This document shows positions 9,512-35,436 of a stretch of 64,000 bases of DNA, piece by piece; positions within the stretch are counted from its first letter, which is position 1, and the number at the start of each line of letters is the position of its first letter. Both the position numbers and the translations under genes were made by a program. Under the pieces are notes generated by a model that was not told the DNA's origin, did not search any database, and saw only the letters and a program-made list of their open reading frames with translations. Source of the stretch: Paracoccus sp. SMMA_5_TC (GTDB lineage Bacteria > Pseudomonadota > Alphaproteobacteria > Rhodobacterales > Rhodobacteraceae); assembly GCF_009696685.2 (NCBI RefSeq), contig NZ_CP102356.1, positions 109,501 through 173,500 of the forward strand. The letters run 5' to 3'.

Positions 9512-10444
9512 TCACGGCGCCGGCAGTCCCAGCCTTGCGCAGTCCTCGGCCACCCAGGCGGTGATCAGCGCCATCACCTCGTCGTCAAGGCGCGGCGCCG
9601 AATTGGCGGTGATGTGCAGGTCGATCGGGGTGCCCGGCACGCCATAGGCATGGATGCCGACACAGACCGGCGCGTCCTGGCCATCGTCCTGCACCCAGAC
9701 CGGGGCGCCGGATTGGCCGCTGACGGTATCCACGTCGTAAAACAGCCGCCGGCGGGTGACGGCCATGATCCGGTTGGCGTGGTGATATTGCGTCCGCGCC
9801 AGATCCTTGTCGGTCGGATAGCCCGAGATGTTGACCAGCCGCCCGATCAGGTCGGCATCGTCGCGCACTTGCAACGGGAACCACCCCGTGCGCTGGCCCA
9901 GCGGTTCTTGCAGATGAATGGCGGCGATGTCGTAATCGGCCGCCTGTCCCTCGATCCACAGGTTCAGGGTCGAGAAATATTCGGCCCTGATCTGGCCAAA
10001 GGGAAAATTGCCGCCGCCGCGCCCGGCCGCGACCAGGACGTGATCGGCCCAGCCTGCAAAGAACGGCGGATAGTGCAGGCAATGCCCGGCGGTCAGCACC
10101 GTGGCCGGGCCGATCAGAAAGCCCGTGCCCTTGAAGGTGCCGCGGCTGCCGATCAGGTCCAGCTGGCAGATGCGCCGCCAGGGATCGGTGCTGGCATCCG
10201 CGACCGGCTGGCGTTCGTCGGTATCGCCGATGATGGTTTCAAAGCCGGTCAGCGGGTTGCGTTGACGGGTGCCTGGCAGCGGCGGCCCCTTGCCCTGCAC
10301 CGGCACAGGATTGTCCGAAACCTTGCCCGTCGGCGCGGCCGCCACGCCGGCCTCGGGGGCGGCGGGCGGCGTGGCCGGGTCTGCCTCTGTCGCGGCCGGC
10401 GACGGGGGCGGGAAAGGCTTGTTGCTGACGCTGAACAGGGCCAT
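9512..10444 (-). CDS. Trypsin-like (V8/S1-type) serine protease
   Basis: A 310-aa protein, last gene of the long - strand operon. The first ~90 residues are Pro/Ala-rich and disordered-looking, with no signal peptide. The protease domain has a complete triad: H121 in TAGHC, D172 in AADYDIAAI and S245 in GQSGAP. The layout (GTGFLIGPATVLTAGHC) is that of chymotrypsin-fold glutamyl-endopeptidase-like enzymes. It starts 4 nt after the tyrosinase stop. A second trypsin-like protease, fused to an EAD1 domain, is the first gene of the operon, so the cluster is bracketed by two proteases; this one could be an effector or process other products of the operon (inference). Confidence 0.85.
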   Translation of the reverse strand: MALFSVSNKPFPPPSPAATEADPATPPAAPEAGVAAAPTGKVSDNPVPVQGKGPPLPGTRQRNPLTGFETIIGDTDERQPVADASTDPWRRICQLDLIGSRGTFKGTGFLIGPATVLTAGHCLHYPPFFAGWADHVLVAAGRGGGNFPFGQIRAEYFSTLNLWIEGQAADYDIAAIHLQEPLGQRTGWFPLQVRDDADLIGRLVNISGYPTDKDLARTQYHHANRIMAVTRRRLFYDVDTVSGQSGAPVWVQDDGQDAPVCVGIHAYGVPGTPIDLHITANSAPRLDDEVMALITAWVAEDCARLGLPAP

Positions 10445-10448
10445 GGCG

Positions 10449-11978
10449 CTACCTCAGCAAGGCGATGCTGGACACGGTGACCTGCGGCGCGGGGCCGGCC
10501 TCGACGCCGCCCTCGGTCGGGGTGACGCGCGGCACGATTTCGACACCCACCGGCCCGCCTTCATAGATGCCATCCTGGATCTGGCGGTCGATCAGCCCGC
10601 TGACATCGTAGCTTTCGCTGTAGGTGTCATCGCCTTGCGGCACGCTGAACGGGGCGAACAGGCCGACGAAATAGCGCGGGTCCATATCGCGGGCGCCACC
10701 CTCGGGCGGGTTCAGATAGACCTCGAATATGGTGCGGGGCGGCGCGTCATAGCGAATGTCGCCCAGGCGCAGGACCACCGGCCGATCCAGATCCTGCGGG
10801 CTGGTGGTGGCGAACAGCTCGGCCCCGCCGGCCTCGACCAAGGGCTGCGCCTCGACCCGGACGGGCTGGCGCGACAGCGTTACCGGGGCCGATGTGGCGG
10901 CCAGTTCGGTCACCATGCCGCCGGCCTCGATGCCGCTGCCGGCCTGTGCCAGCACCACGGTGCCGGCCTCCGGCGCGCTGGCGTCGTCATAGCGGTAATC
11001 CAGCCTGGTGACGGTATCCATCACCTCGCGGGTGGTCATTTCGACCAGGTTGCCGTCCTCGTCCCAGAAACGGTGAACGCGCGCCAGAAAGGCGGAATCG
11101 GTCGGGTTGGTGCGCCCCTGGGCAATCCAGCGCGTCCACAGCCTGTCGATGTTGCAGTGATGCAGCCAGAATATCGGGTCCAGCGCCGCCGTGGCCGGGT
11201 CCGACATCAGCCCGTCATCACCCCCCAGCGCGACATGGATGACGTTATGCGGCTGGCTTTCGATCATCTGATAGAAGCCCGGGCGGACCCCGGCCGGTGC
11301 TGCGACGGTTTCGCGCATGGCCGCGCTGGTGCTGACGGTCGCGGCACCCAGCGCGGTGCCGCCATTGATCCCCGCGGCGCGTTCGGCCCGGAACAGTGCA
11401 TTGCCGGCCGGATTGTCCTTGTCTCGGAAGGCCTCGGGCAGGGCGCGCTCTGCCACGGAATCGGTATAGTTCCAGTAGGGCAGCGCGAAATCTGGCTGGT
11501 TGGCGGCCTTGCGCAGGATGCGTTCAAAGAAATACAGATACATCCGGTGCCAGGGCAGAAAGCGCAGGTTGCGATGCTGGCACAGGTTCCCGGGCGCCAG
11601 ATACATCTGCAATTCCGGCGGCAGGTTGGCGAAATCGGCCGCATCGGCCGGGTTGGGCAGGTGGATTGCCGCCTGAAAGCGCCAGCTGGTGACATCGCTG
11701 AAGGGCTTGGCCATCATCGCCTGCACCCCGCGCCGATAGGCGTCGATGGTGGCGCGACCCTCGGCGGTCTGGGCCAGGGCATAGATGTTGCGCCGCACCC
11801 GGCTGCCCTGGGTGGTGCTTCCGCCAGAGCCCCCGGAACCGCCCGAGCCACCACTGGGCTGGGCGGGGGCCTGGGCGGCCCAGAACAGGCCGGCTGCTGT
11901 GCTGCCGATCGCTGCCGCGCGCAGGAAGCCGCGGCGCGACAGCGGCAGGACGGGCGGGAAAATCGGGGATCTGGTCAT
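10449..11978 (-). CDS. Tat-exported tyrosinase / polyphenol oxidase
   Basis: A 509-aa type-3 copper enzyme that would hydroxylate phenols and oxidise catechols to quinones. The leader has a twin-arginine motif ([10 protein letters not shown], residues 14-23), followed by a low-complexity GGS-repeat linker (43-54). CuA ligands are H106 (AAIH), H135 (CQH) and H144 (LPWH); CuB ligands are H244 and H248 (QPHNVIH) plus the HH pair 273-274 in [12 protein letters not shown]. The order and spacing resemble plant-type polyphenol oxidases. The C-terminal ~170 residues (from about 340) form a beta-rich domain as in PPO C-terminal regions. The gene overlaps the preceding one by 4 nt, so it is part of the operon, yet it is the only member with an export signal. 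Confidence 0.9.
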
Positions 11979-14071
11979 GGCAAAACTCCGACTGTGGCGG
12001 CGGGCTGGGGATGCCGGCCGACGGGAATGGATAAAGGCGGCCGGCCGTCCGCCATCAGGCGCGACAGCCAGCCGTCGGGGTGCAGATAGACCGCCGCGCG
12101 CAGCCGGCCACGGCGATCAAGCGTCAGGGTGTGCAGGCTGCGCCGCGCCTCGCCCGCACGGCGCAGGTCGGTCATCAGTTGCAGCAACGACTGGGGGTCA
12201 AGACCAAGGTTCGTCGCCCAACCGGCCAGCGCCGCATATTCGTGTTCTGGCCGCCAGATGACCTGCCGTTCGGCGCGTGTGGCCAGCGTCAGATCGGCGC
12301 AGATCCCGGCCTGCGGGTCCAGCCGCACCGCCAGCCCCGAGAGCACGCGCCCGGCTTGGGCATGGCTCAGCAGGCCCGGAATCGTCGGATCGAACCCTGG
12401 GGGCAGCGACATGCCCAGACACGCGGCCGCGCGGCGGGTGGCGACTGGATCATGCGCGGGCAGTTCCCAATAGATCTTGGCCCCCACCCGGGCCTGGGGG
12501 GCCACGGCCAGGCCGATCTGCTGAGGGCGGGCGGTTGGCGCCATGGCGGCATCCAGGTCGGCCAGCCCGTCGCGGATTCGGTTCCCACCCAGGGCAAGGT
12601 GAACGCGTTCAGCGAGATCCAGCCTTGCGCCGCTGTCGGGGCCGGCATGGGCCAGGTTGGCATAAAGTTTCAACACCGGGATCAGCCGGCCATCCTGCCA
12701 GGTCGCGTCCAGCCCGCCCCATAGCCAGAAACGATCATCGCCCACCGGCGCGGCGGCAAACGCCGCCATCAACGGGCACAGCGCCGCGACCATGGGGGCC
12801 GCATCCAGCCCCAGCCACGCGGCCGCGCGCAGCAGCGAGCCCTTGGCCACCCGCGCCCGCGCCGGACCCGGCAATCGCGGATCGCCCAGATCGCAGGCCA
12901 GCCGCAGTGCCGGGTGAGGTTGCGGGGACAGCGGGGCCGAAAACTCCAGCGGCCAGCCCCGCGCCAGGCTTGAGACCGCCGGGTTCGGCCATGGCAGCGG
13001 CGCCGAGATCAAGGGCCGCAGCAGCGCCATGGCGGCCTGCGTCAGGGTCGCGGCCGGATCGGTGGGCAGCCCCTGGGCTTCGGCCAGTTCGCGCAGGCCA
13101 CGGGCCAGCCCTTCGACCCGCGCCGGCGCGGCGGGGCGCGGCGGCCTGACACGCGGGGGCAGTTCGCAGGCGCCCAGCGCACGCATTGCCGCCGCCAGGG
13201 TAAAGACCCCGGCGCCCTCCAGGCTTTCCTCGCCCCGCGCGCTGGCCGGATAGCGCGGCGGTGCCAGCAGACGCGCTTCGGCCGCCGGGAACGGCTGCGG
13301 GCGTGCGATTTCGGCGATCAGCGCTGCCGAGCCGCCCGCGGGGTCCAGCAAGGCCCGGGCATGGGCGATCAGCAGGCGGTCAAGGCTGGCGGCCGCAGGG
13401 TCAGCAGGCTGGGGCCAGCGCGGCGGGGGCTCGGGCCGGCCGGCGGCATGCCAGAGTTCGATGGCAGTCACGGTGGCAACGCCCGGTCCCGGCCACCAAT
13501 AGGCGCGCCAGTGCCCCGCCTTGTCCTGCAGCGGCGCCAGACGCTGGCGCCACAGCTTGCACAGCGCCGCCGGGCCAAGCGCGCCCGCCCCCGCCAGCGC
13601 CAGCCCGCAGGCGGCGTCCACCTCGGGGCAGGGCAGCGACCAGGCGTCCCAGCGCCGCATCGGGCCATAGGTCGCCCAGCCGTCATGAACATCGCCCTGC
13701 GCCAGCAGGAAGTCGGAGGCGGCTGCGGGCGGCGGTCGGTCCAGCGCCGCGAGCAAGCGAAGCACCGCCGCGGTGCTGTCGCTGTCGGCGGGCAGGTCGG
13801 GGTGATAGCCCCAACCGCCGGCGGGCCGCGCCATTGCCAGCAGCCGATCTGCCGCAACCCCCGCCGCGTCCAGTGCCCGCGCGGCCAGGGGCGCGGGCAG
13901 ACGACCGCTGTGCCCGGCCTGGGCCAGGGCCAGCGCCGCCACCGCGCCCACCCATTCCCGGCTTTGCCCCGGACCCATGCGGAATGCCCCCCACAGCCCG
14001 TCGCGCCCTTGTTGGCGCAACATATGCCGCGTCAGTGCCGCCAGCAGCGGTGCAGGGGTCGGGTGTGTCAT
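11975..14071 (-). CDS. Two-part protein: terpene-cyclase/prenyltransferase toroid-like N-terminus, possible ABBA-prenyltransferase-like C-terminus
   Basis: A 698-aa protein starting at the ATG that overlaps the upstream stop (4 nt); the longer open frame upstream is a shadow. Residues ~1-160 look like an alpha/alpha toroid of the squalene-hopene-cyclase/prenyltransferase superfamily: a QW-like motif QQGRDGLWG (20-28), and [17 protein letters not shown] (85-101) resembling the region before the DxDD acid of class II cyclases, here with DSDS. The C-terminal ~250 residues ([40 protein letters not shown]) resemble aromatic prenyltransferases of the ABBA/DMATS type, with spaced K-x-Y strands. Both assignments rest on short motifs. 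If right, the product would be a prenyl- or terpenoid-modifying enzyme next to a tyrosinase, hinting at phenolic metabolite chemistry. Confidence 0.45.
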
Positions 14072-16308
14072 GTGCCGCCCCCGTCTTTTGGCGGCACAAA
14101 CACGAACAGCGTATCGCCGACATGTTCGGCCTCGGTGCTCCAGGGGCCGAAACCGTCCGCCCAGACGCCGCGCGCGCGCACGCTTAGCCGCAGGAAACCA
14201 TCCGCCTGCGGGTCGGCCGCGCCGGTCAGGTCGTCCAGATTGCGCGGAAAAGTCAGGCTGCGTTCGGGCGTGCCGGCCATCAGCGTCGCCTGCACAGGCG
14301 CCCGCCCCGGGCGCGCCATCTGCACCTCGACCGCGATGGGCTGATCGGGGGCGGGTGCGGCGGCGGCCGCGGCCAGTTGCGGGCTGATGATGCGCAGCTG
14401 CCAGCCGGCGCCACCGGCGGGTGCCAGCGCGTGGATGGCGCGCAGCGCGACATCGGGGTCCAGATCGACGGCCAGCCCGGCCAGCACCGGCACCACGGCG
14501 TTCCATATCGCCCCCTCGGGTGCCGAGACCGGGGCAAAGGTCAGCCCGGCCTGAGCCCCGGGTGCCAGCGTGATCGGCAGGCTTTCCGCCGGCTGAGCAG
14601 CCAGCACATTGGCCGGCAGCAACGCATTGGCATCCAGCAGCAGCAACGCTGCCTGCGCCTGGGCCAGGGTGACGGGCTGGGCGGCGCGGTTGGTGATCTC
14701 GACCCGGTCGGGATTGATCGCGGCACTGGCGACGCGCCGTTCCAGCGGCAGCGCGCCCAGCCGCTGGAAGCTGAGGCTCAGCGGTATGCGCCGGCTGCTG
14801 GCCGGGCGGTCGCCGCTTGCCGGTGTCAGCACCGCCTCGACCCAGCCGTTCAGCCCGACCGGACCGGTCAGGATGGTGACCAGCAGCGCGTAATATTCCT
14901 CGCTCAGGTCCAGTGTCAGGTCGAAGGGTGTAGTCACGTCGACCGCCAGCCCGTCCCCCGCGCCATCAAGGGCGATGTCCTCGGGAAAGATGGTCAGCAA
15001 TTGCAGCCGCGCCGACTGGATGCCGCCGCCGATCACCTGCGGATGCAGATAGGCGCCGCCGGTCTGTCGTGACAGCGCCGCCTGCAACCCGGCCACGCGG
15101 GTGGTGTCGAACCAGGGTTCGGCCCGCAGGATGACGCGGATGCGGCGGCTGCCGTCGCTGGCCTGATACTGCACCGGCAGCATATGCGGCAGGCCGCGGG
15201 CGCCGTCATAGGACAGGCGGAATTCATGCGGCAGCAGATAGACGGTATTGACGAATTCGGCCGGGCATAGCGTGCCCCATTCGCTGTCCTGCCATTCACC
15301 GGGCAGTTCGGCGCGGCCGGCAATGGCGCGAAAGATCGCGGCGTGCTGATCCAGGCTGCGATCGAAGAAAAACGCCAGTCGCCGGCTGAACCGGGTCTCG
15401 ACCCGCCGCTCGCTGCTGCTGTCGGGTGGCAGGGTCAGTTCGGGAATGTCGATCAGGCGGCGGTCGCGCCAGCGTTCGATCAATTCGGGTGCGATCACCG
15501 CCGAGGCGCTGACAAAGGCGCCGTCGCCCAGCCTGACGGGCGCCACCGCCACCCTGGGGCTGTGTTCTGCGGCCACCAGCAGCCCCGACAGCTGTCCGGG
15601 CGGCATGGCCAGCGTGCCGGTGACGCCGGACAGGTCGGTGGGCAGGGCCACCACCTCGCCAGGGTTGGGCCGGGGATGTTCGATCAGCACCGGCGGCAGG
15701 CGCGGCAGTCGCTGCCAGGGCCGGCGCGGCCTTGGGCCATGCGGGTTGGTGTCGGCGGTGGTGCGCAACAGATAGCTGGCGACATGGTCGATGACCAGCA
15801 CCGCCCCGGCATGGGCATCGGTCATTGCCGCCACCAGCCGCGCCACGTCATCGGGGGTCAGCCGCGCCAGGATGCGCAAGCCGCCGCCATCGACGGGTGT
15901 CGGTTCGGGCAGGGGCAGGCTGCCGCCGTTCCAGTCGATGCGGGGCGGCCCGACCGGGCTGCCCAGCGGCAGGGCGCCTTCGGGCAGGCTCTGGACCAGG
16001 CCGATGTGCAGATAGGTCGCGCCGTCGAGTTCGCGCAGGAACATCACGTCCGGTCCCGGAAGGCTGCCCTGACGCTCGCCCAGGCGCAGATCGGGTCGCG
16101 CATAGCTTTGCCCGTCCAGCGCCCGATAGCTGCGGCCGTCGGCCACCGGTTCTTCGGCGCTGGCAAACACCGGCTCGGCGGTCATGGCCATGCGCGCGGC
16201 GCGCATCACCATGCCCATGTCGGCTGCCGCCGGCCGCGGCCGCGGGCTGATCTCGACCGCCGCAAGCGGAGCCGGCGAAACGCTGAGAATGGCCTTGTCC
16301 ATCGGCAC
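14068..16308 (-). CDS. Large hypothetical protein of the operon, family not recognised
   Basis: A 746-aa protein with no signal peptide and no membrane segment. The first ~45 residues are Ala/Met-rich. Residues ~90-175 contain alternating short strands and a helix (DDVARLVAAMTDAHAGAVLVIDHV). Residues ~340-500 are richer in aromatic residues (FSRRLAFFFDRSLDQH, EFVNTVYLLPHEFRLSYDG, RIRVILRAEPWFDTTRVAGLQ). The C-terminal ~250 residues look like beta-sandwich material, loosely similar in texture to the repeat regions of its giant neighbours, but I find neither the GGFL nor the YxDP signature, so I do not place it in that family. It overlaps the next gene by 4 nt and starts just after the fifth giant paralogue. 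Function unknown. Confidence 0.7.
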   Translation of the reverse strand: MPMDKAILSVSPAPLAAVEISPRPRPAAADMGMVMRAARMAMTAEPVFASAEEPVADGRSYRALDGQSYARPDLRLGERQGSLPGPDVMFLRELDGATYLHIGLVQSLPEGALPLGSPVGPPRIDWNGGSLPLPEPTPVDGGGLRILARLTPDDVARLVAAMTDAHAGAVLVIDHVASYLLRTTADTNPHGPRPRRPWQRLPRLPPVLIEHPRPNPGEVVALPTDLSGVTGTLAMPPGQLSGLLVAAEHSPRVAVAPVRLGDGAFVSASAVIAPELIERWRDRRLIDIPELTLPPDSSSERRVETRFSRRLAFFFDRSLDQHAAIFRAIAGRAELPGEWQDSEWGTLCPAEFVNTVYLLPHEFRLSYDGARGLPHMLPVQYQASDGSRRIRVILRAEPWFDTTRVAGLQAALSRQTGGAYLHPQVIGGGIQSARLQLLTIFPEDIALDGAGDGLAVDVTTPFDLTLDLSEEYYALLVTILTGPVGLNGWVEAVLTPASGDRPASSRRIPLSLSFQRLGALPLERRVASAAINPDRVEITNRAAQPVTLAQAQAALLLLDANALLPANVLAAQPAESLPITLAPGAQAGLTFAPVSAPEGAIWNAVVPVLAGLAVDLDPDVALRAIHALAPAGGAGWQLRIISPQLAAAAAAPAPDQPIAVEVQMARPGRAPVQATLMAGTPERSLTFPRNLDDLTGAADPQADGFLRLSVRARGVWADGFGPWSTEAEHVGDTLFVFVPPKDGGGT

Positions 16309-16310
16309 AC

Positions 16311-18581
16311 CTATCGCAGGATGACAAAGGGATCTTCGGTATCGACCGGCGGTTCGGTCAGGTCGTCGGCGGGACTGCGACCCACGCGCCGCACGCTGTA
16401 GCGAAAGCCGCGCCGCGCCGGATCGGCCAGCAGCACCGTCCAGCTTTGCAGCTTGAGGCCGGTGTCGGAAAACAGCATCGGCTTGCGCAGGGCCAGGCCG
16501 TTGTCGGGATCGGCATAGTCCAGCGTCACCATCACCCGCGCATAGCGCGCCCAGTCGACCATTTCCGCATCGACGATGATTTCCAGCGCATCGGCGCCGG
16601 TCGGCCCGACGGTGATCACGTCCCCCAGACGGCCACGATGGCTGCTGCGGTTTTCCGAGCCGTTGCGCCGCAGCACCTGCACGTCATAGGCAAAATCCAG
16701 CAGATCCTTGTCCGCCAACCGCACGGTCCAGGGGGCGGTGCGCGTGGTGCCGTCCAGCGTCAGGGTGATACGCTCGGTCAGGTCATGGGCGGGGTCGGCA
16801 TAAGTTGCGATGACCAGGATCGATTGCACGTCATTGGCGAAATCGCCGCGGCCGACGAAGGTGGTCGTCACCCGCGCCTCGAAGGGGCTGGTGATGGTCA
16901 GCGTCTCGGCGGCGTTCTCGTCGGCGGGCAAGGACAGGGTGGTGCCGTCGGTCATGCGATAGGTCCGCTCCACCCGATAGGGTCGGATCGGCCCGCCCGC
17001 CGGGACCGACACCAGCCAGCTGCCGGTGGGCTGGGCCTGCGACAGTGTCAGCGTCTTGACCGCGCCGCGCGCCGCCGGGTCGGGATAGGTCAGCGTGACA
17101 TCGACCGAGGCGACCTCGGGCGGCATCGGCGCCAGCAGCAGATCGACCTTCAGCTGTCCAAGCTGGGCGTAGCTGATGACCAGATATTCGCTGCTGGCGG
17201 TATTCCACCCCCCGGCCGGGGGATGTTCGGCCGTCACCATCGAGCCGACGAAATGGATCACCGTGCGATAGCGATAGTCCAGCTTGGGCGTGCGGTCGGT
17301 ATTCATGGCCAGCTCGAAGGCGAATTGCTGCGGTTCGCCGTTGCGGCTGAGCTGCAATTGCCGTTGCGTGCGGATGCGCCGGCCGCGGATGTCGTCGAAC
17401 TGGTCATAATCGACGAACACGCTGACGCTCTGGATCGGGTCGATCTGGAAATTGATGTTGGGCGCCACCGTCAAGCGCATGATCGGAATATTGGCCTGGC
17501 TGAGGTTGGCATAGACGATGGCGGCGGCGGTATCGGCGGGCGTCAGCTCGGCACCCAGGATCGCGTTGGCACCATGTTCGATCTGCACCACGTCGCGGCG
17601 GCTGATGGTGACATCGACGCTGCCGGTGTCTGTGGTGGTTTCGCGAAACCAGTAGCCGCGATCCTTTTCCGCGTCGGTTTCGTCCTCGGCGGGGATGGCG
17701 CGTTCAAAGAACCCCGGCAGGATGTTGTTCTGCAGGATGTTCATGGCCATGCGTTCCAGTTCCTGGGTCAGATCCTCGGACGGGTCGGCGTCGCGGAAAT
17801 CGCCGTCGTCGATTTCGACCGTCAGGCTGTGATGGCTGCTGCGAAAACTGGACAGCGTCGGCGGAGGATACCAGACCGGCCGCAGCACGATGCCGCCGCC
17901 CAGGGTGACATAGCGACGCATGATCGCGTTCTGTCGGGCCTGTTCCAGGAATTCTTGCCGATCCGCGCGGATGCGGATGGTCAGCGCCGGAATGCGGGCA
18001 ATCATCATCAGCCCCTGATAGCGGACCTGGATGGGCAGGACGCCCTCTTCCATGGTCTGGCGCAGCAGGCGGGCGCCGCTTTGGGTCAGCTGATAGGAAA
18101 AGCTGGCGCTGTTGACGCCCGTGGACATGATCGGGCAACTGCCCTGGGCGGCGATCTGCAGCTCCTCGCCAAAGGTGGTGGCAACCGCCGTGCCGCCGAT
18201 GAACTGAGGGGCATAACCCAGTTCGGGCTCGCCCGGAAGCACCGGCATGCCCAGAAAGCGAAAGCCGCGGTCGACCTCTTCTGCCAGGCGCTGGCGCAGG
18301 TGATCGCGGATGCGAGTCTGTTCGGCAAGCGAAATCGCCAGCCCCACCGTCATCTGCAACTGCCCGCGTTCGACATCGTCGTTTGGCGGCCGGGGCTGGG
18401 ACAGGTCGCGGACATAGGCGATCAGGTCCAGCATCGGCCGGCTGGTCGGGTCCCGGGGATCGGCGCGCAGGATCCGCGGCTTGCCCGAGACCATGTAGAA
18501 CTTGCGCGGGTTTTCGTCGTCGCGATACAGCACGACATCCGGCACCCCGGGAACCGTGAAACTGCCATAAAGGGAAAGCAT
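16311..18581 (-). CDS. Giant beta-repeat paralogue 5 (756 aa)
   Basis: The most divergent member of a five-protein family unique to this operon. The N-terminus (LYRDDENPRKFYMVSGKP, 18-35) matches the start of its sisters, though the GGFL motif is replaced (GQLQMTVGLAIS). The shared middle segment is clear: ASFSYQLTQSGARLL (159-173) followed by PIQVRYQGLM (183-192) and PALTIRIRAD (198-207). The C-terminal half holds four repeats marked by a Y-x-D strand end: Y392 (VDYDQFDD), Y499 (LTYPDPAARG), Y594 (ATYADPAHD) and Y689 (LDYADPDNG), about 95-107 residues apart. The last two are followed by W-T-V-L-L-A-D-P-type strands (WTVLLADPARRGFRYSV, 714-730). No signal peptide or catalytic motif. Probably a structural or binding protein; function unknown. 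Confidence 0.8.
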   Translation of the reverse strand: MLSLYGSFTVPGVPDVVLYRDDENPRKFYMVSGKPRILRADPRDPTSRPMLDLIAYVRDLSQPRPPNDDVERGQLQMTVGLAISLAEQTRIRDHLRQRLAEEVDRGFRFLGMPVLPGEPELGYAPQFIGGTAVATTFGEELQIAAQGSCPIMSTGVNSASFSYQLTQSGARLLRQTMEEGVLPIQVRYQGLMMIARIPALTIRIRADRQEFLEQARQNAIMRRYVTLGGGIVLRPVWYPPPTLSSFRSSHHSLTVEIDDGDFRDADPSEDLTQELERMAMNILQNNILPGFFERAIPAEDETDAEKDRGYWFRETTTDTGSVDVTISRRDVVQIEHGANAILGAELTPADTAAAIVYANLSQANIPIMRLTVAPNINFQIDPIQSVSVFVDYDQFDDIRGRRIRTQRQLQLSRNGEPQQFAFELAMNTDRTPKLDYRYRTVIHFVGSMVTAEHPPAGGWNTASSEYLVISYAQLGQLKVDLLLAPMPPEVASVDVTLTYPDPAARGAVKTLTLSQAQPTGSWLVSVPAGGPIRPYRVERTYRMTDGTTLSLPADENAAETLTITSPFEARVTTTFVGRGDFANDVQSILVIATYADPAHDLTERITLTLDGTTRTAPWTVRLADKDLLDFAYDVQVLRRNGSENRSSHRGRLGDVITVGPTGADALEIIVDAEMVDWARYARVMVTLDYADPDNGLALRKPMLFSDTGLKLQSWTVLLADPARRGFRYSVRRVGRSPADDLTEPPVDTEDPFVILR

Positions 18582-18596
18582 ACGGTTCTCCTTTTG

Positions 18597-19298: not shown

Positions 19299-19309
19299 CG
19301 ATAACCCCT

Positions 19310-20911: not shown

Positions 20912-20926
20912 CGGAACGCCTCATGG

Positions 20927-23383: not shown

Positions 23384-23404
23384 GGCAAGCTCCGGTTGCG
23401 GGGG

Positions 23405-25777: not shown

Positions 25778-25789
25778 CGGCGTCCTCCC

Positions 25790-28093: not shown

Positions 28094-28109
28094 GGCGTCA
28101 TCCCTTGCC

Positions 28110-30347
28110 TCAACCGTTGGGGGGAGGAACAAACAGCCAGTCGTCGGGGTGGGCAAAGCTCGCGGTCTGTTCCTGGCCGGCGATCCGCTCGCCCGAGGCC
28201 ATGAAGTAGTCGACCCGATAGCGGTATTCCAGCCGCTGGGGATCGGCCAGCGCCACCGACCAGACCGAACTGTCGCCGGGATTGCGCAGCAGCACGCCAT
28301 GCGTATCCAGAACGTTGTTGACCGGATCGCTATAGGACAGCGACACCGTTGCCCGCCGCACATCCGTTCCCAGCGCCAGATCGTCGCCCGAGACCGTGAC
28401 CCGGTAAAGCCCGCCCGGGGCATTGCCCACGATCACCGGCACACCGCTGGCCTGCACCACGCGCGGGGCGAAATTGCGCGCCACGCCGCTGCGGAACAGA
28501 TGAGTTTCGCTGACCGCGACCGTGCGCCGCGCCGGATCCTTCAAGGGCGCGAAAAAGGTCTTGATCTTGCCCTGATCCTCGGGGGCAAAGAACAGCGACT
28601 GCTGGGTGCGCAGGTCGTTGTCGGGATCGTTGTATGTCAGCGACACCAGGATGCCGGCCAGCTCGCTCCAATCCGCCGAAGGCACCACATCCAGCATCAA
28701 CCGGTCCTCGAACGGGGTGGGCACGCGCAGGTTGGTGGTGCCGGCCGGGGCCTCGATCCAGGGTGTCGAGACCTTCTGGTTGGGGAACACATGGGTGAAA
28801 CGATAGCGGAAAGGCTTCAGCTCGGGCGAATAGACCGGGCGGCGGATGACGACCTGTGGTGCCTCCTTGGTCAGGCTGCGTTCCTCGACAAAGGGGGTGA
28901 CGCCGCTGCGGCGATCCTCATAGGCCAGTTCGATGTCGATCGAGCGCAACTCGCCCTCGAACCCGGCGGCGGGGGCCGAGAAGGTGACGTTGATTTCGCC
29001 CGGATTGGCCACAGCGATGACCTGGGCCGGAGCCACCGATGTCGCATTCAGCAACCGCTGCTTCAGGATCGGGCCGTTGCGGTAATGCACCTCGGCCGTG
29101 ACCTGGTATTCGTTGCTGCGCCCCTTGGCGGTGACGAACTTGCGCCGGCGGTTGTCGTCCTTGGTAAAGATGAAGCTTTCCGCCTTCTGGATGCGCCGGC
29201 CGGTATCGTCGGGGCTGTCATAGGTCAGGTCCACGACGATGGAATGAACGTAATCGTCGAAGCGCTCGAAATCGAAACTGGTCGAGACATCCACCTCGAG
29301 CCGCTTGAAGAAAGGATGCGCCAGCGTGTCCACGATCAGCAGATAGTCCTTGATATCCGCCGAAATGAACGACGGGTTGATTGTCGCGCTGGGGTTGTAT
29401 TGGCGGATCACCACATCCGATTGCGTCAGCGTCAGGTCGAAGTTCTTCTGGAAGTCCTCGTTGATGAAGGTCAGCCATTCGCTGCGCAGTTCCTCGGGTG
29501 TCAGAATGCCGCCGACATTCATCCACTGTTCGTTGATGAACTTGTCCATCGCGCCCAGGGCAAAATCGCGCAGATCGGCGATCATGTCGTCGTCCAGTTC
29601 CACCTGGGCCGAGCCGGCGCGAATATCCAGCGTCACCAGATTGTTTTCGCGCAGGAATTCGCTGTAGCCGGTGCGCTTTCGCACCTGGGTCGTGGTATCG
29701 CCGCCCCAGAAATCCTCATCCACGATTTCCTGTTCGGTATAGGTCGCCACCACCTCGCGCACGCGGCCGGCGTCGATATGGGCCTCGATCACCACGGCGG
29801 GCAGGCGCACCTCGAATTCCAGGTTGTATTCGACCGCGGCGATGGCGCCGCCCTGGCGCAAAGTGTCGGCAAAGACCTCGGCCCCCATGAGCGGAAAATC
29901 GGCCACGACCGAAACCGTGTTGCTGCCGATCAGCGATGGTCGGCCCAGATCGATGCGTTCGACCAGGCTGTTGTTCGGCCCGCGCGCGATGCGCAGCACC
30001 GCCGTGCCGCCGGTGAAGGGCACGGAACGGATCTTGGGCGTCGGAATCGGCGCGCCCGGCGACGGCGCCTCGGCCCGCAGGATCGCCTGTGCGCGGTCGG
30101 TCGCCTTTTGTCCGACCACATCGGCGGGCGCGGTCAGCACCGTGGTCATCACCAGAAAGCCGCCGCCCTGCTGCTTGCCCTCGATGGGCAGGCCGGCCTG
30201 ATACAGCACGAACTGGAATTGCGGCGACCCGTCGGGATTACGTGCCAGGGCGACGGTGCTGGGCAGGTAATAGAAAACCTCGGGGGCTTCGTCGTCGCGA
30301 AAGAACTGGACGCCCTCGATTTCAAAACCATCCGTCAGGGAAAGCAT
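28110..30347 (-). CDS. Giant beta-repeat paralogue 1 (745 aa)
   Basis: The first of the five giant paralogues after the NTPase module. N-terminal signature: FFRDDEAPEVFYYLP (15-29), FQFVLYQAGLP (44-54) and GGGFLVMTTV (61-70). Middle segment VSVVADFPLMGAEVFADTLRQG then IAAVEYNLEFEVRLP at 145-183. Residues ~200-345 are mixed helical. Four C-terminal repeats are the clearest of the family, with tyrosines Y376 (LTYDSPDDTG), Y476 (LAYEDRRSG), Y572 (LTYNDPDNDL) and Y672 (LSYSDPVNNV), i.e. a period of 96-100 residues, and a second signature DPARRTVAVSETHLFRSG / DPQRLEYRYRVDYFMASG. The pattern suggests tandem Ig-like beta-sandwich modules. A candidate promoter lies in the 129-bp gap upstream, so the paralogue block may be separately transcribed from the NTPase genes. 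Confidence 0.8.
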   Translation of the reverse strand: MLSLTDGFEIEGVQFFRDDEAPEVFYYLPSTVALARNPDGSPQFQFVLYQAGLPIEGKQQGGGFLVMTTVLTAPADVVGQKATDRAQAILRAEAPSPGAPIPTPKIRSVPFTGGTAVLRIARGPNNSLVERIDLGRPSLIGSNTVSVVADFPLMGAEVFADTLRQGGAIAAVEYNLEFEVRLPAVVIEAHIDAGRVREVVATYTEQEIVDEDFWGGDTTTQVRKRTGYSEFLRENNLVTLDIRAGSAQVELDDDMIADLRDFALGAMDKFINEQWMNVGGILTPEELRSEWLTFINEDFQKNFDLTLTQSDVVIRQYNPSATINPSFISADIKDYLLIVDTLAHPFFKRLEVDVSTSFDFERFDDYVHSIVVDLTYDSPDDTGRRIQKAESFIFTKDDNRRRKFVTAKGRSNEYQVTAEVHYRNGPILKQRLLNATSVAPAQVIAVANPGEINVTFSAPAAGFEGELRSIDIELAYEDRRSGVTPFVEERSLTKEAPQVVIRRPVYSPELKPFRYRFTHVFPNQKVSTPWIEAPAGTTNLRVPTPFEDRLMLDVVPSADWSELAGILVSLTYNDPDNDLRTQQSLFFAPEDQGKIKTFFAPLKDPARRTVAVSETHLFRSGVARNFAPRVVQASGVPVIVGNAPGGLYRVTVSGDDLALGTDVRRATVSLSYSDPVNNVLDTHGVLLRNPGDSSVWSVALADPQRLEYRYRVDYFMASGERIAGQEQTASFAHPDDWLFVPPPNG

Positions 30348-30424
30348 GCCAATACTCCGTGCTGGGCTGACCCGCTGGAAGCAGGGGCCGGAACAGACAA
30401 ATCTTTCGTACCTGGGATGGGTCG

Positions 30425-30453
30425 ATCATGCCCCAGTGGCCGCAAAAAGTAAA
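30425..30453 (-). promoter_or_regulatory. Candidate promoter for the paralogue block
   Basis: In the 129-bp gap before paralogue 1, reading the - strand, TTTACT (30453-30448) and CATGAT (30430-30425) are separated by 17 nt. Each box matches four of six consensus positions, so this is weak support. It is the only gap over 100 bp inside the operon. Confidence 0.3.
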
Positions 30454-30476
30454 GCAATGGCTACGCTTGCGCCGGA

Positions 30477-33245
30477 TCAGAACGCCGATTGCACCAGATC
30501 GCCCCAGGCGGTCTGATCGGGTGCCAGCGGGCTTTGCCGCCAGGGGGTCGGGCGGGCGCGCATCGCCCGTGCCGGCAGGCCGCCGCGGCTGTGATCGATT
30601 TCGGCGGCCATCAGATCGCAGACCAGCGCCACCCGTGCAAAGCGGTGCTGGCGGTCCGGGGCGTCGTTGACCAGCGCCAGGCCGTTGGCGAAAGGTTCAT
30701 CGGGCAGCAGCATGTCGCCCAAGAGCGGCCGCGCCCGCCGGTCGCTGACGATCGAGGCGGCGCTGGCGCCGCGCAGCGCCGGGGGCAGGGCGATGCCGGC
30801 ACCGCTGCCGCGCAGGGCGGCAGCCAGAACCTGCGGGTCGCGCATGCCCAGTTCCGCCGCCAGTTCCCGCATCAACCCCGGCGTGGCCGAAAGCTGGGCC
30901 ATGACGCCATCATTGCGCAACAGCCGCTCGGCCTCGGCCACCAGGGTTTCCGGGGCGGGTCCGGGCAGGCCGCGGCGGTGGCGGTGCAGTCGCAACAGCG
31001 CCATCAGGCTGCGCAGCCGCGCCGGCGTGTTTTCCGTCAGTTGCGCCAGGTCCACCGCGCGCCTGGCGGCCTGTCCCGCGCGCAACAATGCCCGGCGGGT
31101 TTCATGGATCAGCGTTTCCACCAGCAGCAATGCCACCTGCGTCAGCCGGTCGCCGGCGGTTTCGGCGCTGGCGATGCCCTGACGCAGGATCTGCAACGCA
31201 GTTTCTGGCTGACCCAGCATGACCAGCGCCTCGGCCTCGGTCAGGAACAGCGGCGATGCCGGCAGCCGTTGCTGGCGCTGGTTCAAGACCGACAGCGCCT
31301 CTTGCGGCAACTTGTCGCGCATCAGGGCGCGGGCGGTCTGTTCGGCCGAGGTTTCCCAGGATTGCTGGTCGGCCAAGTCCTGCCATTCCGGGCGCAGGTC
31401 GATGCGCAAGCGGTTGGCCAGCCATATTTGCGCCCGGGGCGGCAGTTCGTCCAGCGCGCCAGAGAGCAGCGGCGCTGCCGCCTCGTCCCAGCGGGGGTCC
31501 AGCTCCTCGGCCGGGCTGTCCAGCGCCAGCAGGTGATAAAGCTCCTCGGCTCTGGCCAGGGCACCCGGGCGGTCGCGGTAATAGCGCACCGCCGCGCGAT
31601 CGATGTCGGCGGCAAGCTGCGGCTGATCGCGGCGCAGGTCGGTCAGCACCAGCCGGCGCACGTCCTCGCGATAGCGCAGCGCGCCGGTGCCGGGTTCGGG
31701 CTGCACCAGCGCAACCTCATGGCCGAAGCGCGTGAACAGATCCTGCGCTGCATCGCTGTCGGCAATGGTCACGCCGCAGGGTTCGGCCAGAACCGCCAGC
31801 AGGATGTCGGGGGTGATGCGGCGCAGCACCAGCCCCGGATAGGCCAACCGTCGCACCTGTTCGTCATGGATATGCCCCAGCACCCGACCGTAAAGCTGCG
31901 CCTGCACCTTTTCGGTGCGAATCTGCCCAATCAGTTGCGCCATCCGGGCGCTGTCGGCAAAGGCGTCGCGGCCCTCGGTCGCCAGAACCCGGCCTGCCAG
32001 ATAGGTGGCCAGCGGATTGCCGCGCGCAATGGCATAGACCTGATCGGCGACCGCTTGCGGCAGCGGCCCCAGCCCGGCGCTTTTTTCCAGCACGGCGCGG
32101 GCCGCGATGGGGTCCAGTGCCCGCAGCGTCACCTTTTCGGCAGGCAGACCATCTTCCTGCGCGCGTCCGGCGATGATGACGCGCAGCCGCGGGTTGCCGG
32201 ACTTGAGGCTGTCGACCAGTTGCATCAGGCGGCTGACGGCGCTGGGGCCGGTGGTCTGCGCTTCCTCGAAGGTGTCGATGACCAGCAAGACCGGCTGGTT
32301 GCCGGGAATGATGGCCATGGCCGCGCGGGCGATGCGGCTGACCTCGTGCCAGTCAACGGCGCCGCCGGTGACGGATTCCATCGTCTCGGTCGAGCGGCTG
32401 CGCAGCCGCAGCGAGGCGATGTGATCGCGCATCCCGTCCAGTTCGGGGTTCAGTTCCGGGTGCTGGATGCGCAGCTGGCGCCCGGCCTCGAGCAGCAGGG
32501 TGAACGGGTCGTCGATGACCAGTTGCGGATCGTCCAGGTTCAGCAGCAGCACCGTGGGCGGGTTCGGATCGTGCTCGACGGCGTCCAGAATGAATTTCGC
32601 CAGCACGGTCGACTTTCCGACGCCGCCCGGTCCCTGGACCATCAGCACCGCGCCGGGCGGGGCCAGGCGCAGGTGATCGGCAATCTGCGCCAGGACATCG
32701 GCGCGGCCGGCGAAATGGCTGCCCACCAGCTTGCGCAGCGGTGCCAGCAGACGCGCGCGTGCCGCCTGCTGGGCCACCTGCTGCGGATCTGGCAGGTCGG
32801 GCAGGATGCCCTGCAGCCAGGCGAGGGCCTCGGCCAGGGCGGCCAGCTGCCCGGGATCCTGCGACCGCAGCAGCGGCTCGGTGGCCGACGGCCCGGCGAT
32901 CAGCGCGGCCAGTGCCTGCTGCGTCGGGTGGTCAGGCTGCGGGTTCAGTGCCAGCTGGGCCTGCATCGCGGCGGCGTTGCCCAGCCCGGCCAGCGCCTGA
33001 CGGCGTGTATCGTCACGCAGCCGGCGCAACTGACGGGCGGCAAGGCTGGGCTGGGACAGGTCGATCAATTGCGGGATTTCCGGTGACAGCGGCGACAGGA
33101 ACCCACTGCGGGACCGCAGCGTCAGCGGGTCGAAATGCACCAGCACCGCCGCGGCTTCGACCCAGGGCCAGACATCCTGAGGGGTGGCCTCGGCCGTCGG
33201 GGCGGCGGTCAGGCTGATGCGGCCCAGCGATTCGCGCAGGTTCAT
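30477..33245 (-). CDS. STAND-like P-loop NTPase with helical C-terminal repeats
   Basis: A 922-aa signalling-type NTPase. Residues ~1-175 are helical, of unknown type. The NTPase domain has Walker A GPGGVGKST (205-213) and Walker B LLVIDTFEE (320-328), followed by a sensor-like RVIIAGRAQ strand and a winged-helix-like region (to ~560), as in AP-ATPase/NACHT-like STAND proteins. Residues ~560-850 consist of helical hairpins rich in Ala and Leu (LPQEALSVLNQRQQRLPASPLF), suggesting TPR-like repeats for ligand sensing. It overlaps the EAD1-NTPase gene by 4 nt. STAND NTPases act as molecular switches that assemble on sensing a signal; here the outputs could be the EAD1 protease or the paralogues downstream (inference). 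Confidence 0.8.
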   Translation of the reverse strand: MNLRESLGRISLTAAPTAEATPQDVWPWVEAAAVLVHFDPLTLRSRSGFLSPLSPEIPQLIDLSQPSLAARQLRRLRDDTRRQALAGLGNAAAMQAQLALNPQPDHPTQQALAALIAGPSATEPLLRSQDPGQLAALAEALAWLQGILPDLPDPQQVAQQAARARLLAPLRKLVGSHFAGRADVLAQIADHLRLAPPGAVLMVQGPGGVGKSTVLAKFILDAVEHDPNPPTVLLLNLDDPQLVIDDPFTLLLEAGRQLRIQHPELNPELDGMRDHIASLRLRSRSTETMESVTGGAVDWHEVSRIARAAMAIIPGNQPVLLVIDTFEEAQTTGPSAVSRLMQLVDSLKSGNPRLRVIIAGRAQEDGLPAEKVTLRALDPIAARAVLEKSAGLGPLPQAVADQVYAIARGNPLATYLAGRVLATEGRDAFADSARMAQLIGQIRTEKVQAQLYGRVLGHIHDEQVRRLAYPGLVLRRITPDILLAVLAEPCGVTIADSDAAQDLFTRFGHEVALVQPEPGTGALRYREDVRRLVLTDLRRDQPQLAADIDRAAVRYYRDRPGALARAEELYHLLALDSPAEELDPRWDEAAAPLLSGALDELPPRAQIWLANRLRIDLRPEWQDLADQQSWETSAEQTARALMRDKLPQEALSVLNQRQQRLPASPLFLTEAEALVMLGQPETALQILRQGIASAETAGDRLTQVALLLVETLIHETRRALLRAGQAARRAVDLAQLTENTPARLRSLMALLRLHRHRRGLPGPAPETLVAEAERLLRNDGVMAQLSATPGLMRELAAELGMRDPQVLAAALRGSGAGIALPPALRGASAASIVSDRRARPLLGDMLLPDEPFANGLALVNDAPDRQHRFARVALVCDLMAAEIDHSRGGLPARAMRARPTPWRQSPLAPDQTAWGDLVQSAF

Positions 33246-34294
33246 GGCTGCCCCCCCTGGGCCGCCTGGATCGCGGCCAGGGCGACCAGCTGGATCCGCT
33301 GGGTCAGGGCCTGCGCCCGGGCATAGGGTTCGCTGTTGTCATCCCAGCCCTGATAGCACAATGACAGGATGTCATCGGTGCTATGCATGTCTGCCGGCAT
33401 GGCGTATTGCCCGATCAGAGCGTCAAGGTAATCGCGCAGATCCTCGCGGGCAAAGGCGCGCAGGCCCTGTTCCAGGATCCTTCCCGGCGGCGGGCCGGAA
33501 ATCGGTCGGTCCCAGCCCAGCAGGAACAGCCGCATGCGTTCGGGCTGGCCATTGCCGATGCTTTGCGCCAGGCCGTGCATCAGCATGGTCACGCTGTCGT
33601 CGATGCGCTGCGAATCGAAGCCGTCCAGGATCAGCCACCAGTCGCGATCCAGCTTGCGACCCATGGCCGCCAGCCAACGCACCATCCGCATCACCGCCGT
33701 CGAATCCTGCGGCTGGTCGGCCAGGGACGGCGGCGCGCCCAGGTCCATGAACAGGGCCATATCCTCGACCAGGTCGCGGGCGGTGGTCGTCGGCTCGACC
33801 ATGGGGATATGATAGACCTCGGCCCCGATGCTGCGGGCGACATGGCCGATCAGCGTCTGGCTGTAGCTTTTGCCGCTGGCATTGGCACCGGTGACCTGAA
33901 GAACCTTGGGGCCGAAGGATTGGGTCATGGTTTGCAGCACATGGCGCAGCGGGTGCTGATTGACGAAGGGCGCGCCGTCCAGGACCAGTTCCAGATGCGG
34001 CTGCGGCGCGGCGGCGGTGCGCGGCCCCGTCAGCCGGTCGATCAGCGCCAGCAGTGCCGGGTTGATCGGATCGGCCTGGCGTAACCCCTGGCACAGCCGG
34101 TCCATCCAGCCTTCGTCATTGGCCGCCTGCACCAGGCGATGATACTGCACGTCCAGCGTATCGGGGGCGCTGATGCGCGCCAGCGCCCGCTCGATCGGCG
34201 GGGCGGTCAGGATCATGTCCAGCCGGGCCGCCTGCGGGAAGGCGGCGATCAGCGCCCGCAGCAGTTCCTGACATTCGGCGCCGCTCAGCCTCAT
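33242..34294 (-). CDS. EAD1 domain fused to a P-loop NTPase
   Basis: A 350-aa protein. Residues 1-90 form an effector-associated domain of the EAD1 type: helices ending in LVQAANDEGWMDRL and the DPINPALL motif (75-82). A P-loop domain follows, with Walker A GANASGKS (136-143) and Walker B LILDGFD (221-227). EAD1 domains pair by homotypic contact; the same domain is at the N-terminus of the protease gene immediately upstream (4-nt overlap), so the two proteins are expected to bind each other. The small NTPase could couple the large STAND protein to the protease. The domain call relies on known motif texture rather than a profile search. Confidence 0.75.
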   Translation of the reverse strand: MRLSGAECQELLRALIAAFPQAARLDMILTAPPIERALARISAPDTLDVQYHRLVQAANDEGWMDRLCQGLRQADPINPALLALIDRLTGPRTAAAPQPHLELVLDGAPFVNQHPLRHVLQTMTQSFGPKVLQVTGANASGKSYSQTLIGHVARSIGAEVYHIPMVEPTTTARDLVEDMALFMDLGAPPSLADQPQDSTAVMRMVRWLAAMGRKLDRDWWLILDGFDSQRIDDSVTMLMHGLAQSIGNGQPERMRLFLLGWDRPISGPPPGRILEQGLRAFAREDLRDYLDALIGQYAMPADMHSTDDILSLCYQGWDDNSEPYARAQALTQRIQLVALAAIQAAQGGQP

Positions 34295-35364
34295 GGCGGC
34301 ACCTGGGTCCAGAAGGGATCGACCTGGCCGGTCAGCCGGCCGATGATGGCGGCAAGTGGCACCGCCTGGTTGAAGGCGGCGGTGCGGGCAAAGTTCGGGT
34401 CGCCCGCATGGTGCAGGCCGATCAGGTCGAGGTTGCGGTTGAACACCGGCGCGCCGGAGGATCCCGGTTCGGTCGCAACATCGTGCCGCCAGCGCAGCCC
34501 GTGGGCCCGCAGCTCGGTCAACCTGCCCAGGCCCAGTTTCAGCGGCGCGCCCTGCGGATGCTGCAGGATCAACAGATCGTCGCCGGCCCCGGCGGGAATG
34601 GTCGGGTCGATCGTCATCCAGCCGCGCGGTGGATTGCCCGGCCCCTCCTGCCCCTGCCGGGGCTGCTCGCCCAAAGGCTCTGCCAGGCGGAGCAGGGCGA
34701 AGTCCAGGTTTTCCGGCTCGGGTTCCAGGCTTTCGTCCAGGCTGGAATCGGCGGCGTCGGGCGGGGCCGAGGCCAGCAGCCAGTCCTCGGCCAAAGGTTG
34801 CACCCGCCCCGCGCGCACCTCGACCCCTTGCGCATCCGTCAGATAGTCGAAGCGGCAGAGCAGCCGGTCGGCTGGCGTCAGATCGGCAATCACGTGCTGG
34901 TTGGTCATCACCAGATCGGGCCCGACCAGAAAGCCGGTGCCGATGGCCTTGGGCGCCGGCAAGGCGCGTTCGATGCGGCAGGTCTGGCCCTCGAGCCCGG
35001 CCAGACGCGCCATGAAGGCGGCAACATCGACGAAATCGCTGCGTTCCCGAACCAGCCGCTGCAGCGCGCTGTCGCCCGCCGCAGGGCGTTGGGTCAGGGG
35101 GCGGGCGCTGCTGAGCCCCTCGGCCAGGACCAGATCGGCCAGCAGCGGATTGCCCGGCACCGATTCATAGGCTGCCCGCGCCAGTGGCAGCAGCCAGCCT
35201 TCGGCCTCGGCCTGGGTGATGATCTGGAAATATTCGACATCCAGCGGGCCGGGGGCGGTCAGCGTGGCATAGTTGCGGTCGAAATACTGGGCCAGCAGCA
35301 TTGCCATGCGCTCGCGCAGGGGAAAGGCAGCCAGCAGGGCCTTGCGCAGCCTTGTCTTGTCCAT
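34291..35364 (-). CDS. EAD1 domain fused to a trypsin-like protease
   Basis: A 357-aa protein, first gene of the operon. Residues 1-85 are an EAD1 domain (FFQIIT-like helix, QAEAEGWLLPLA and VPGNPLL). The protease domain carries a full chymotrypsin-fold triad: H157 (TNQHVIA), D221 (NLDFALLRL) and S303 (GSSGAP), with GTGFLVGPDLVMTNQHV before the histidine as in HtrA/V8-like enzymes. The ATG at 35364 is preferred over an upstream in-frame start because the promoter boxes fall inside that extension. EAD1-protease proteins are a known element of STAND-linked bacterial conflict systems, where the protease is activated by recruitment. No signal peptide, so it probably acts in the cytosol. Confidence 0.82.
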   Translation of the reverse strand: MDKTRLRKALLAAFPLRERMAMLLAQYFDRNYATLTAPGPLDVEYFQIITQAEAEGWLLPLARAAYESVPGNPLLADLVLAEGLSSARPLTQRPAAGDSALQRLVRERSDFVDVAAFMARLAGLEGQTCRIERALPAPKAIGTGFLVGPDLVMTNQHVIADLTPADRLLCRFDYLTDAQGVEVRAGRVQPLAEDWLLASAPPDAADSSLDESLEPEPENLDFALLRLAEPLGEQPRQGQEGPGNPPRGWMTIDPTIPAGAGDDLLILQHPQGAPLKLGLGRLTELRAHGLRWRHDVATEPGSSGAPVFNRNLDLIGLHHAGDPNFARTAAFNQAVPLAAIIGRLTGQVDPFWTQVPP

Positions 35365-35407: not shown

Positions 35408-35436
35408 ATCCTAGCGCAGAAGCCCCGACCTGTCAC
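35408..35436 (-). promoter_or_regulatory. Probable sigma-70-type promoter of the EAD1/STAND operon
   Basis: On the - strand, GTGACA (35436-35431) and TAGGAT (35413-35408) are 17 nt apart: five and four of six matches to consensus. The -10 box lies 44 nt before the ATG of the EAD1 protease, in the 90-bp gap after the photolyase stop. This supports transcription of the operon independently of the photolyase. Confidence 0.55.

Follow-up and report, generated by a model that had tools for sequence, protein, structure and literature searches.

Fourteen genes, all on the minus strand and spanning positions 9512-35364 of a 64,000-nucleotide stretch of Paracoccus sp. SMMA_5_TC (contig NZ_CP102356.1, positions 109,501 to 173,500; hereafter the window, to which coordinates refer unless another locus is named), raise the question of whether a signalling relay and a set of giant proteins encoded side by side form one system. 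The replicon, a plasmid of 325,864 bp, matches pNSM5a of Paracoccus sp. SMMA_5, which carries the identical 14-gene set in its annotation and a g04 protein 99.9% identical to that of the window. The kinds and lengths of these co-directional genes, here numbered g01 to g14, are as claimed by an earlier reading made from the letters alone (the sequence-only reading). Its further claim of one operon is not confirmed, the locus being divided by a 129-bp gap between g03 and g04, with a separate conserved promoter-like element for each part. We call unit A the genes g01-g03 (EAD1-trypsin, EAD1-NTPase and STAND protein, together "the trio") and unit B the genes g04-g14. The locus appears to join two parts: a protease switch of three genes, constructed like self-destruct switches known from bacteria, and, adjoining it, a cluster of eleven genes for giant proteins and enzymes. 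As the units are separate outside Paracoccus, it is a combination, specific to this lineage, of two older modules and not one ancient operon. These modules are themselves well supported; that unit B supplies, in Paracoccus, the targets or outputs of the relay, as its effector arm, is the reading that we tentatively favour, at somewhat below an even chance.

Two units with separate promoter-like elements

Adjacent genes overlap by about 4 bp or are separated by at most 21 bp, the gap between g03 and g04 (30348..30476, minus strand) being the sole exception. Upstream of unit A, an element on the minus strand (35408..35436) scored 9/12 sigma-70 matches in a consensus scan which returned one such site, for 0.8 expected by chance, and TGACA followed after 17 nt by TAAGAT (TAGGAT in the window) lies upstream of g01 in all six Paracoccus genomes having that region. 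The element of unit B, within the gap, consists of CTTTAC, 18 nt and a -10-like hexamer; it was missed by the simple consensus scan, which also found no terminator, and is kept upstream of g04 in 5/5 aligned genomes. When the five regions upstream of g04 were shuffled 2000 times by mononucleotide, a control that ignores common ancestry, a 6-mer common to all five arose once. Because of the 129-bp gap and of the conserved element ahead of each unit, units A and B look like two transcription units, as far as sequence elements can indicate.

A putative relay resembling known self-destruct switches

The first protein of unit A, g01 (34291..35364; 357 amino acids), combines EAD1 and Trypsin_2 domains (Pfam, 42.6 and 66.8 bits, both over cut-off), and its His, Asp and Ser motifs are present in 6/6 aligned Paracoccus copies. 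A second EAD1 domain (50.7 bits, over cut-off) is found in g02 (33242..34294; 350 amino acids), which is called an NTPase from its Walker A motif alone (GANASGKS at residue 136), the best Pfam ATPase match being AAA_22 at 14.8 bits for a cut-off of 27. A search at E 0.01 found no EAD1 domain in the window's genome other than these two. The STAND-like NTPase g03 (30477..33245; 922 amino acids) has an AAA_16 domain (34.4 bits, over cut-off) and a Walker A motif, GPGGVGKS, at residue 205; Pfam gave neither a trypsin match nor a TPR call for it. The domain content of unit A thus resembles an EAD1/STAND/trypsin relay, as the sequence-only reading had proposed.

Two described systems invite comparison. 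As described by Kaur et al. (2020; PMC7159879), System 3 pairs NucA with a trypsin, and some operons add an EAD1-trypsin protein, further EAD1 proteins and a STAND NTPase, while in some the STAND component is fused to bDLD2 and an N-terminal trypsin. The Paracoccus locus shares with the system so described two trypsin-like peptidases (g01 and g14, both over the Pfam cut-off), a STAND NTPase, an alphaproteobacterial host and, as in a subset of these operons, an EAD1-trypsin (g01) adjoining a second EAD1 protein (g02), in a genome without another EAD1 system. It differs in that the NucA-type endonuclease PF01223 occurs in 0/6 Paracoccus genomes having the trio, the window's genome included, whereas it is present beside the trio of a genome outside Paracoccus (G777, see below), and in that the trio is adjoined here by unit B and in other Paracoccus by a gene that we call gTM. 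LypABC of Caulobacter is, according to Banks et al. (2026; PMC13236601), a CARD-NLR-like set of CARD-trypsin-ATPase, STAND and trypsin-endonuclease proteins required for host lysis by gene transfer agents, which releases phage-like particles. In the same study, lysis requires the peptidase domains of LypA and LypC and the ATPase of LypB, not nuclease activity, and the downstream lytic effector is reported as unknown; the ATPase domain of LypA is without conserved Walker residues, one Caulobacter LypC homologue is without nuclease, and Wein et al. are cited for CARD-gasdermin systems. The likeness to LypABC as given there is one of composition: a small N-terminal adaptor domain, a trypsin, an ATPase domain, a STAND/NLR-like partner and a second trypsin, with Walker residues degenerate in LypA and partly so in some g02 copies. 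On the other hand, Pfam places EAD1 in g01 where LypA carries a CARD-like bundle, peptidase and ATPase are split over g01 and g02 where LypA is one polypeptide, and there is no trypsin-endonuclease LypC, g14 being a lone trypsin and PF01223 being absent from the window's genome. On its domains, unit A is an EAD1-type relative of NucA-peptidase System 3 from which the NucA nuclease is missing, and it is likewise related to CARD-NLR/LypABC relays. As both NucA and the LypA fusion are absent, we would not file it as a member of either, the likeness being by composition.

A widespread family of giant paralogues

Protein-database matches to g04 number 27, itself included, the named ones coming from Paracoccus, Paracoccaceae, one Deinococcus and one Thermoanaerobaculia. 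A wider profile matched 150 of the scored candidates (E up to 0.001), and the source names of the 120 listed include Acidobacteriota, Anaerolineales, Cyanobacteria, Burkholderiales, Rhizobiaceae, Amycolatopsis and Arachnia; Nannocystis is also among the sources. By source names, Nannocystis and Deinococcus included, we take the family to cover at least seven phyla. It is over no cut-off in the libraries searched, and none of the five large paralogues, g09 and g11 is over a Pfam cut-off. On plasmid p2 of Pararhizobium qamdonense (L048), the family lies within an eight-gene run, r1-r8, which is annotated solely as hypothetical and gave no Pfam matches at E 0.5. Relatives of r1-r8 stand in the same order in Mesorhizobium, Phormidesmis, Anaerolineae, Hydrogenophaga and Mariprofundaceae loci, among the loci listed for this comparison (7 of 12), some members being missing or cut off by the end of the stretch; the order differs in Nannocystis. 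The idea that the paralogues are a set peculiar to this locus is hence to be abandoned in favour of a large family found across several phyla.

That there are five paralogues in the window, as first proposed, is borne out by profile comparison, since g04, g05, g06, g07 and g10 all match the same outside families (r3, r4, r5, r8) over nearly their full length, each with at least 99.9% hhalign probability to at least one of these profiles. The best match is r4 for g04 (28110..30347; 745 amino acids; E 9e-64) and g10 (16311..18581; 756 amino acids; E 3e-35), r5 for g05 (25790..28093; 767 amino acids; E 9e-39) and r8 for g06 (23405..25777; 790 amino acids; E 8e-49), while g07 (20927..23383; 818 amino acids) matches r5 at E 2e-41 and r8 at E 3e-38. 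The 746-residue g11 (14068..16308) is a relative of r1, with 97.2% probability and E 3e-11 against a three-sequence r1 profile, yet only 1.7% probability against one single r1 sequence. The r1-r8 operon thus resembles unit B in having homologues of g04, g05 and g06 (r4, r5 and r8, whose relative order is kept) and of g11 (r1); it differs in having a papain-like r7 and an unknown r6, and the g11-r1 link is by profile alone. The short g09 (18597..19298; 233 amino acids) aligned to the N-terminus of g05 with 74.5% probability (E 2.7e-5) and to g04, g10, r2 and r5 with less than 2%, which is suggestive only of a short relative of the N-terminal domain of the paralogues. Taken at profile level, the core of unit B, i.e., five tandem immunoglobulin (Ig)-like paralogues and g11, belongs to a widespread, unnamed family that forms multi-gene clusters in several phyla.

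Regarding structure, the AlphaFold model of g04 (28 sequences; mean predicted local distance difference test score, pLDDT, of 80; predicted template modelling score, pTM, of 0.37) consists of an N-terminal alpha/beta domain followed by tandem beta-sandwich domains. Tandem Ig-like domain chains head its PDB matches, though with low TM-scores, and the VIA rows of the structure comparison cover mainly residues 450-745. Modelled alone from 50 sequences (pLDDT 76, pTM 0.63), the N-domain shows a very long hairpin (residues 185-244) in which pLDDT is about 50 to 60; PDB comparison gave no assignable fold, such a weak or absent match being no proof of a new one. The predicted architecture of the paralogues is therefore a conserved N-terminal domain followed by tandem Ig- or fibronectin type III (FN3)-like domains. 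The N-domain model also matches an uncharacterised protein of Medusavirus stheno, A0A7S7YF07 (Foldseek E 1.2e-6, probability 1.00, TM-score only 0.30).

Peptidases are encoded close to these paralogues. Present in 6/7 loci listed, r7 keeps a Cys, a His, an Asn and a Gln invariant across the six sequences aligned; these may be read as a papain-like site, a reading for which a PDB profile search gave no supporting match. Among selected proteins examined, subtilase domains are encoded in the seventh locus (L035) and in L031, and an NAL1-type protein in L036, so that a predicted peptidase was found in 7/7 paralogue loci examined for one. The clustering of several similarly built paralogues, which is kept across phyla, the recurrent peptidases near them and the very long hairpin of the N-domain model would also suit a pore-forming or secreted particle made of the paralogues and g11, with the PLD enzyme and the tyrosinase of unit B as cargo, proteases that mature the particle and unit A controlling its lytic release. 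LypABC is reported to govern, in Caulobacter, the release of phage-like particles (PMC13236601). We consider such a particle unlikely.

The two modules lie apart outside Paracoccus

Among 394 genomes drawn from the family, g02 (E up to 1e-8) was found only in the window's genome and in G777, and the paralogue profile (E up to 1e-10) was matched only by the window's genome and G702; among 385 drawn from the class, the latter profile was matched by three genomes, i.e., the window's genome, G098 and G388. In G777, homologues of g01, g02 and g03 occur in that order (38%, 28% and 36% identity, the last at E 1e-81), the STAND protein being longer than g03 and having two ATPase stretches. The neighbours of this trio are a trypsin-Endonuclease_NS (NucA) fusion and a GDSL-type protein, below the Pfam cut-off; with the fusion, the trio has the layout given for System 3 (PMC7159879) and comes close to that of LypABC (PMC13236601). 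The 20 kb read there contained no paralogue, and G777 gave no paralogue-profile match in what is apparently the same draw of 394 genomes.

Conversely, 13/13 non-Paracoccus paralogue genomes checked (G098, G388 and those behind 11 of 12 loci, L026 being left out) have no linked EAD1. An EAD1 domain over the cut-off occurs in two of them, separated from the paralogues by about 9 Mb within one contig in G517 and on other contigs of a fragmented assembly in G518; in the other eleven none is over the cut-off, G509 having one match below it (E 0.006). Moreover, tblastn at 1e-3 revealed no homologue of g01-g03, g08, g09 or g11-g14 in the 12 loci, read with up to 10 kb either side, in L048 or in the G098 and G388 stretches read. 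Outside Paracoccus, the paralogues and the EAD1/STAND genes are thus apart in the genomes checked, an outcome that the sequence-only reading had named as refuting its view of one system.

In G518, the paralogue matches (L098, L099, L100) are distributed over two contigs, C192 and C112, and on C192 they cover both strands across most of its 23 kb. In G702 (L101, contig C56), the partial paralogue-profile match is a 796-residue protein near a 1197-residue protein and a C69-family peptidase.

The two modules within Paracoccus

Within Paracoccus, the picture is one of co-occurrence. Across 125 genomes, a g02 homologue was found in six and the 818-residue paralogue in four (both at E up to 1e-10), all four falling among the six; the hypergeometric probability of this overlap, 1.5e-6, has no correction for shared ancestry and is overstated because Paracoccus genomes are related. 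The check on co-occurrence that the earlier reading called for gave, in this genus, g01 and g02 in 4/4 genomes with the 818-residue paralogue and g03 in 3/4, and complete unit B was seen only in genomes having g01 and g02.

The arrangement varies between genomes. In G052 and G142, g04-g14 stand in the order of the window, followed by gTM on the opposite strand and by g01-g03 (tblastn coverage of g09 and g06 being partial or broken). Of the set, G047 has only a g04 shortened to roughly 204 N-terminal residues, a tyrosinase fragment, g14, gTM and g01-g03, and G039 has g14, gTM and g01-g03, nothing of g04-g13 being detectable in the 40 kb read. In these four genomes unit A is on the far side of g14, beyond the opposite-strand gTM; the order of the window differs, g01-g03 preceding g04 without gTM. 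In G047, the remnant of unit B (C1:1772213-1773045) has the N-terminal part of g04 adjoining the tyrosinase gene fragment, which is consistent with an internal deletion. The gTM gene is present in all five other Paracoccus genomes with the trio and was not found elsewhere in the window's genome, in a search made without positive control. It encodes a 770-residue protein with a central hydrophobic segment and others at the N- and C-terminal ends, its G142 copy has no Pfam or NCBIfam match, and it lies divergent to g01 at L063:14428-16728 and at the equivalent places in G012, G039, G047 and G052.

In G012 the genes are split between contigs, one carrying g04-g14 at its edge and another carrying gTM, g01 and g02; the 40 kb read around g01-g02 did not reveal g03. 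Beside this EAD1 pair, on the opposite strand, L068:11992-14697 (contig C26) encodes a 901-residue protein with a trypsin domain followed, as judged by eye, by a papain-like peptidase. As g03 was not found there, this protein may be an alternative partner of the EAD1 pair. With r7, the subtilases and the NAL1-type protein, it makes peptidases a recurrent companion of both modules.

Such a distribution could also be that of two neighbours without a shared job, unit B being an independent cellular structure or, with the terpene-cyclase-like g12, the tyrosinase and the PLD enzyme, a small-molecule locus, and unit A a defence module moving along in the same variable region. The separate promoter-like elements, the separation of the units outside Paracoccus and their location on different contigs in G012 would all fit this explanation, and the 4/4 co-occurrence may reflect few events, Paracoccus genomes being related. 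Against it, the window holds both units despite another unit order and a plasmid location, and 0/125 genomes have the 818-residue paralogue (E up to 1e-10) without the EAD1-NTPase. Furthermore, unit A is still accompanied by g14 in G039, where g04-g13 are missing, and in G047, where only a remnant of them is left, so that the protease at the end of unit B goes with unit A too. We regard neighbours without a shared job as somewhat less probable than coupling.

Enzymes of unit B

The PLD-superfamily enzyme g08 (19310..20911; 533 amino acids; PLDc_2 36.2 bits, over cut-off) has one full HxKx4Dx6G[ST] motif, at residue 404, which is kept in 40/40 homology matches (g08 included), and a second site (HAK at 169) at which the motif is incomplete in the window protein. 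Three of its homologues, P0179, P0181 and P0183, also bear a glycoside hydrolase 25 domain (PF01183). In g12 (11975..14071; 698 amino acids), the first third is terpene-cyclase-like by PDB profile search: a three-sequence profile matched 8pak (E 7e-10) and MstE 6sbb (E 2e-6) at positions 5-217 of 692, Pfam SQHop_cyclase_N being under its cut-off (12.9 bits for 26.2).

The tyrosinase g13 (10449..11978; 509 amino acids) has PF00264 (131 bits), PPO1_DWL and a C-terminal DUF7868 domain (25.6 bits for a cut-off of 25), and matches the core of the Verrucomicrobium tyrosinase in the PDB (8bbq, E 2.5e-18). Histidines 106, 135, 144, 244, 248, 273 and 274, which we take to be the copper-binding residues of a type-3 copper centre, are conserved in 4/4 copies. 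So is a twin-arginine (Tat) leader, SRRGFL, for which the NCBIfam TAT signal is under its cut-off (15.3 bits for 16.7). In the Verrucomicrobium spinosum enzyme, a C-terminal extension holds the enzyme nearly inactive, the core having 213 U/mg and the full-length protein 0.67 U/mg (PMC10526336). With it g13 shares a Tat leader, a type-3 copper core and a C-terminal domain of about 150 residues; it differs in that this domain scores as DUF7868, for which a blocking role is putative. Finally, the trypsin-like protease g14 (9512..10444; 310 amino acids; Trypsin 40.9 bits, over cut-off) keeps its TAGHC and GQSGAPV motifs in 6/6 Paracoccus copies. Beyond the end of g14, a gene on the other strand (4321-5886) encodes a protein with a methylamine dehydrogenase heavy-chain domain (PF06433), and genes annotated as cytochromes sit between the two.

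How the two units may be coupled

In the reading that we favour, the STAND protein g03 would sense a trigger and assemble, and EAD1-EAD1 contacts via g02 would recruit the EAD1-trypsin g01, which g14 might assist in proteolysis. Cleavage would then switch on products of unit B, namely the tyrosinase (with its C-terminal DUF7868 domain as a possible lid), the PLD enzyme or an assembly of the paralogues, and the activated products would damage or lyse the cell, as in abortive infection. In favour of this reading we count the domain content, the co-occurrence in Paracoccus, the likeness of the trio and its G777 counterpart to System 3 and LypABC, the absence of NucA from the Paracoccus trio genomes, the finding of only two EAD1 domains in the genome, the peptidases that recur near paralogues elsewhere and the near-inactivity of the extended Verrucomicrobium tyrosinase.

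Several points weigh against this coupling. Each unit has a promoter-like element of its own, and joint expression stays presumed. The Walker A lysine of g02 is replaced by Arg in 2/6 copies (G052 and G039), being kept in 4/6. In G012, the paralogue cluster and g01-g02 are on different contigs and g03 was not found in 40 kb around the latter; G039 has unit A and g14 without a trace of g04-g13 in the 40 kb read. In the Paracoccus genome G048, which has no g02, there is one weak g04 match (E 1.1e-4, 83 residues); a tblastn search of 35 kb from that genome with the window proteins gave nothing at 1e-3. To these are added the missing link to EAD1 in all 13 genomes outside the genus and the lack of blastp similarity, at E 1e-3, between g14 and the trypsin-NucA protein of G777. 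The main difficulty may lie in the cell itself: g13 has a Tat-type leader whereas g01 and g14 are without a hydrophobic segment (in a crude scan that also misses the leader of g13), and protease and tyrosinase could therefore be in different compartments.

The association of serine proteases and a phenol oxidase in one putative pathway recalls the arthropod prophenoloxidase cascade (PMC4700666); the organisms are unrelated and the resemblance is of logic only. It would take on more weight if g04-g14 were an undescribed protease-triggered machine, operating across phyla under different peptidases and wired in Paracoccus to the EAD1/STAND relay and to a tyrosinase zymogen, in a bacterial analogue of that cascade, which we deem highly improbable.

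Significance for Paracoccus and the paralogue family

If the coupling of unit A to unit B is real, death-type switches of bacteria have a wider range of outputs than is known, a CARD-NLR-like protease relay here being in control of a large protein assembly without a name. The locus also gives concrete candidates for the type of effector that is, in the Caulobacter study, reported as unknown downstream of LypABC (PMC13236601). Moreover, as the paralogue family is large, widespread and over no library cut-off, the function of one of its members would inform many genomes.

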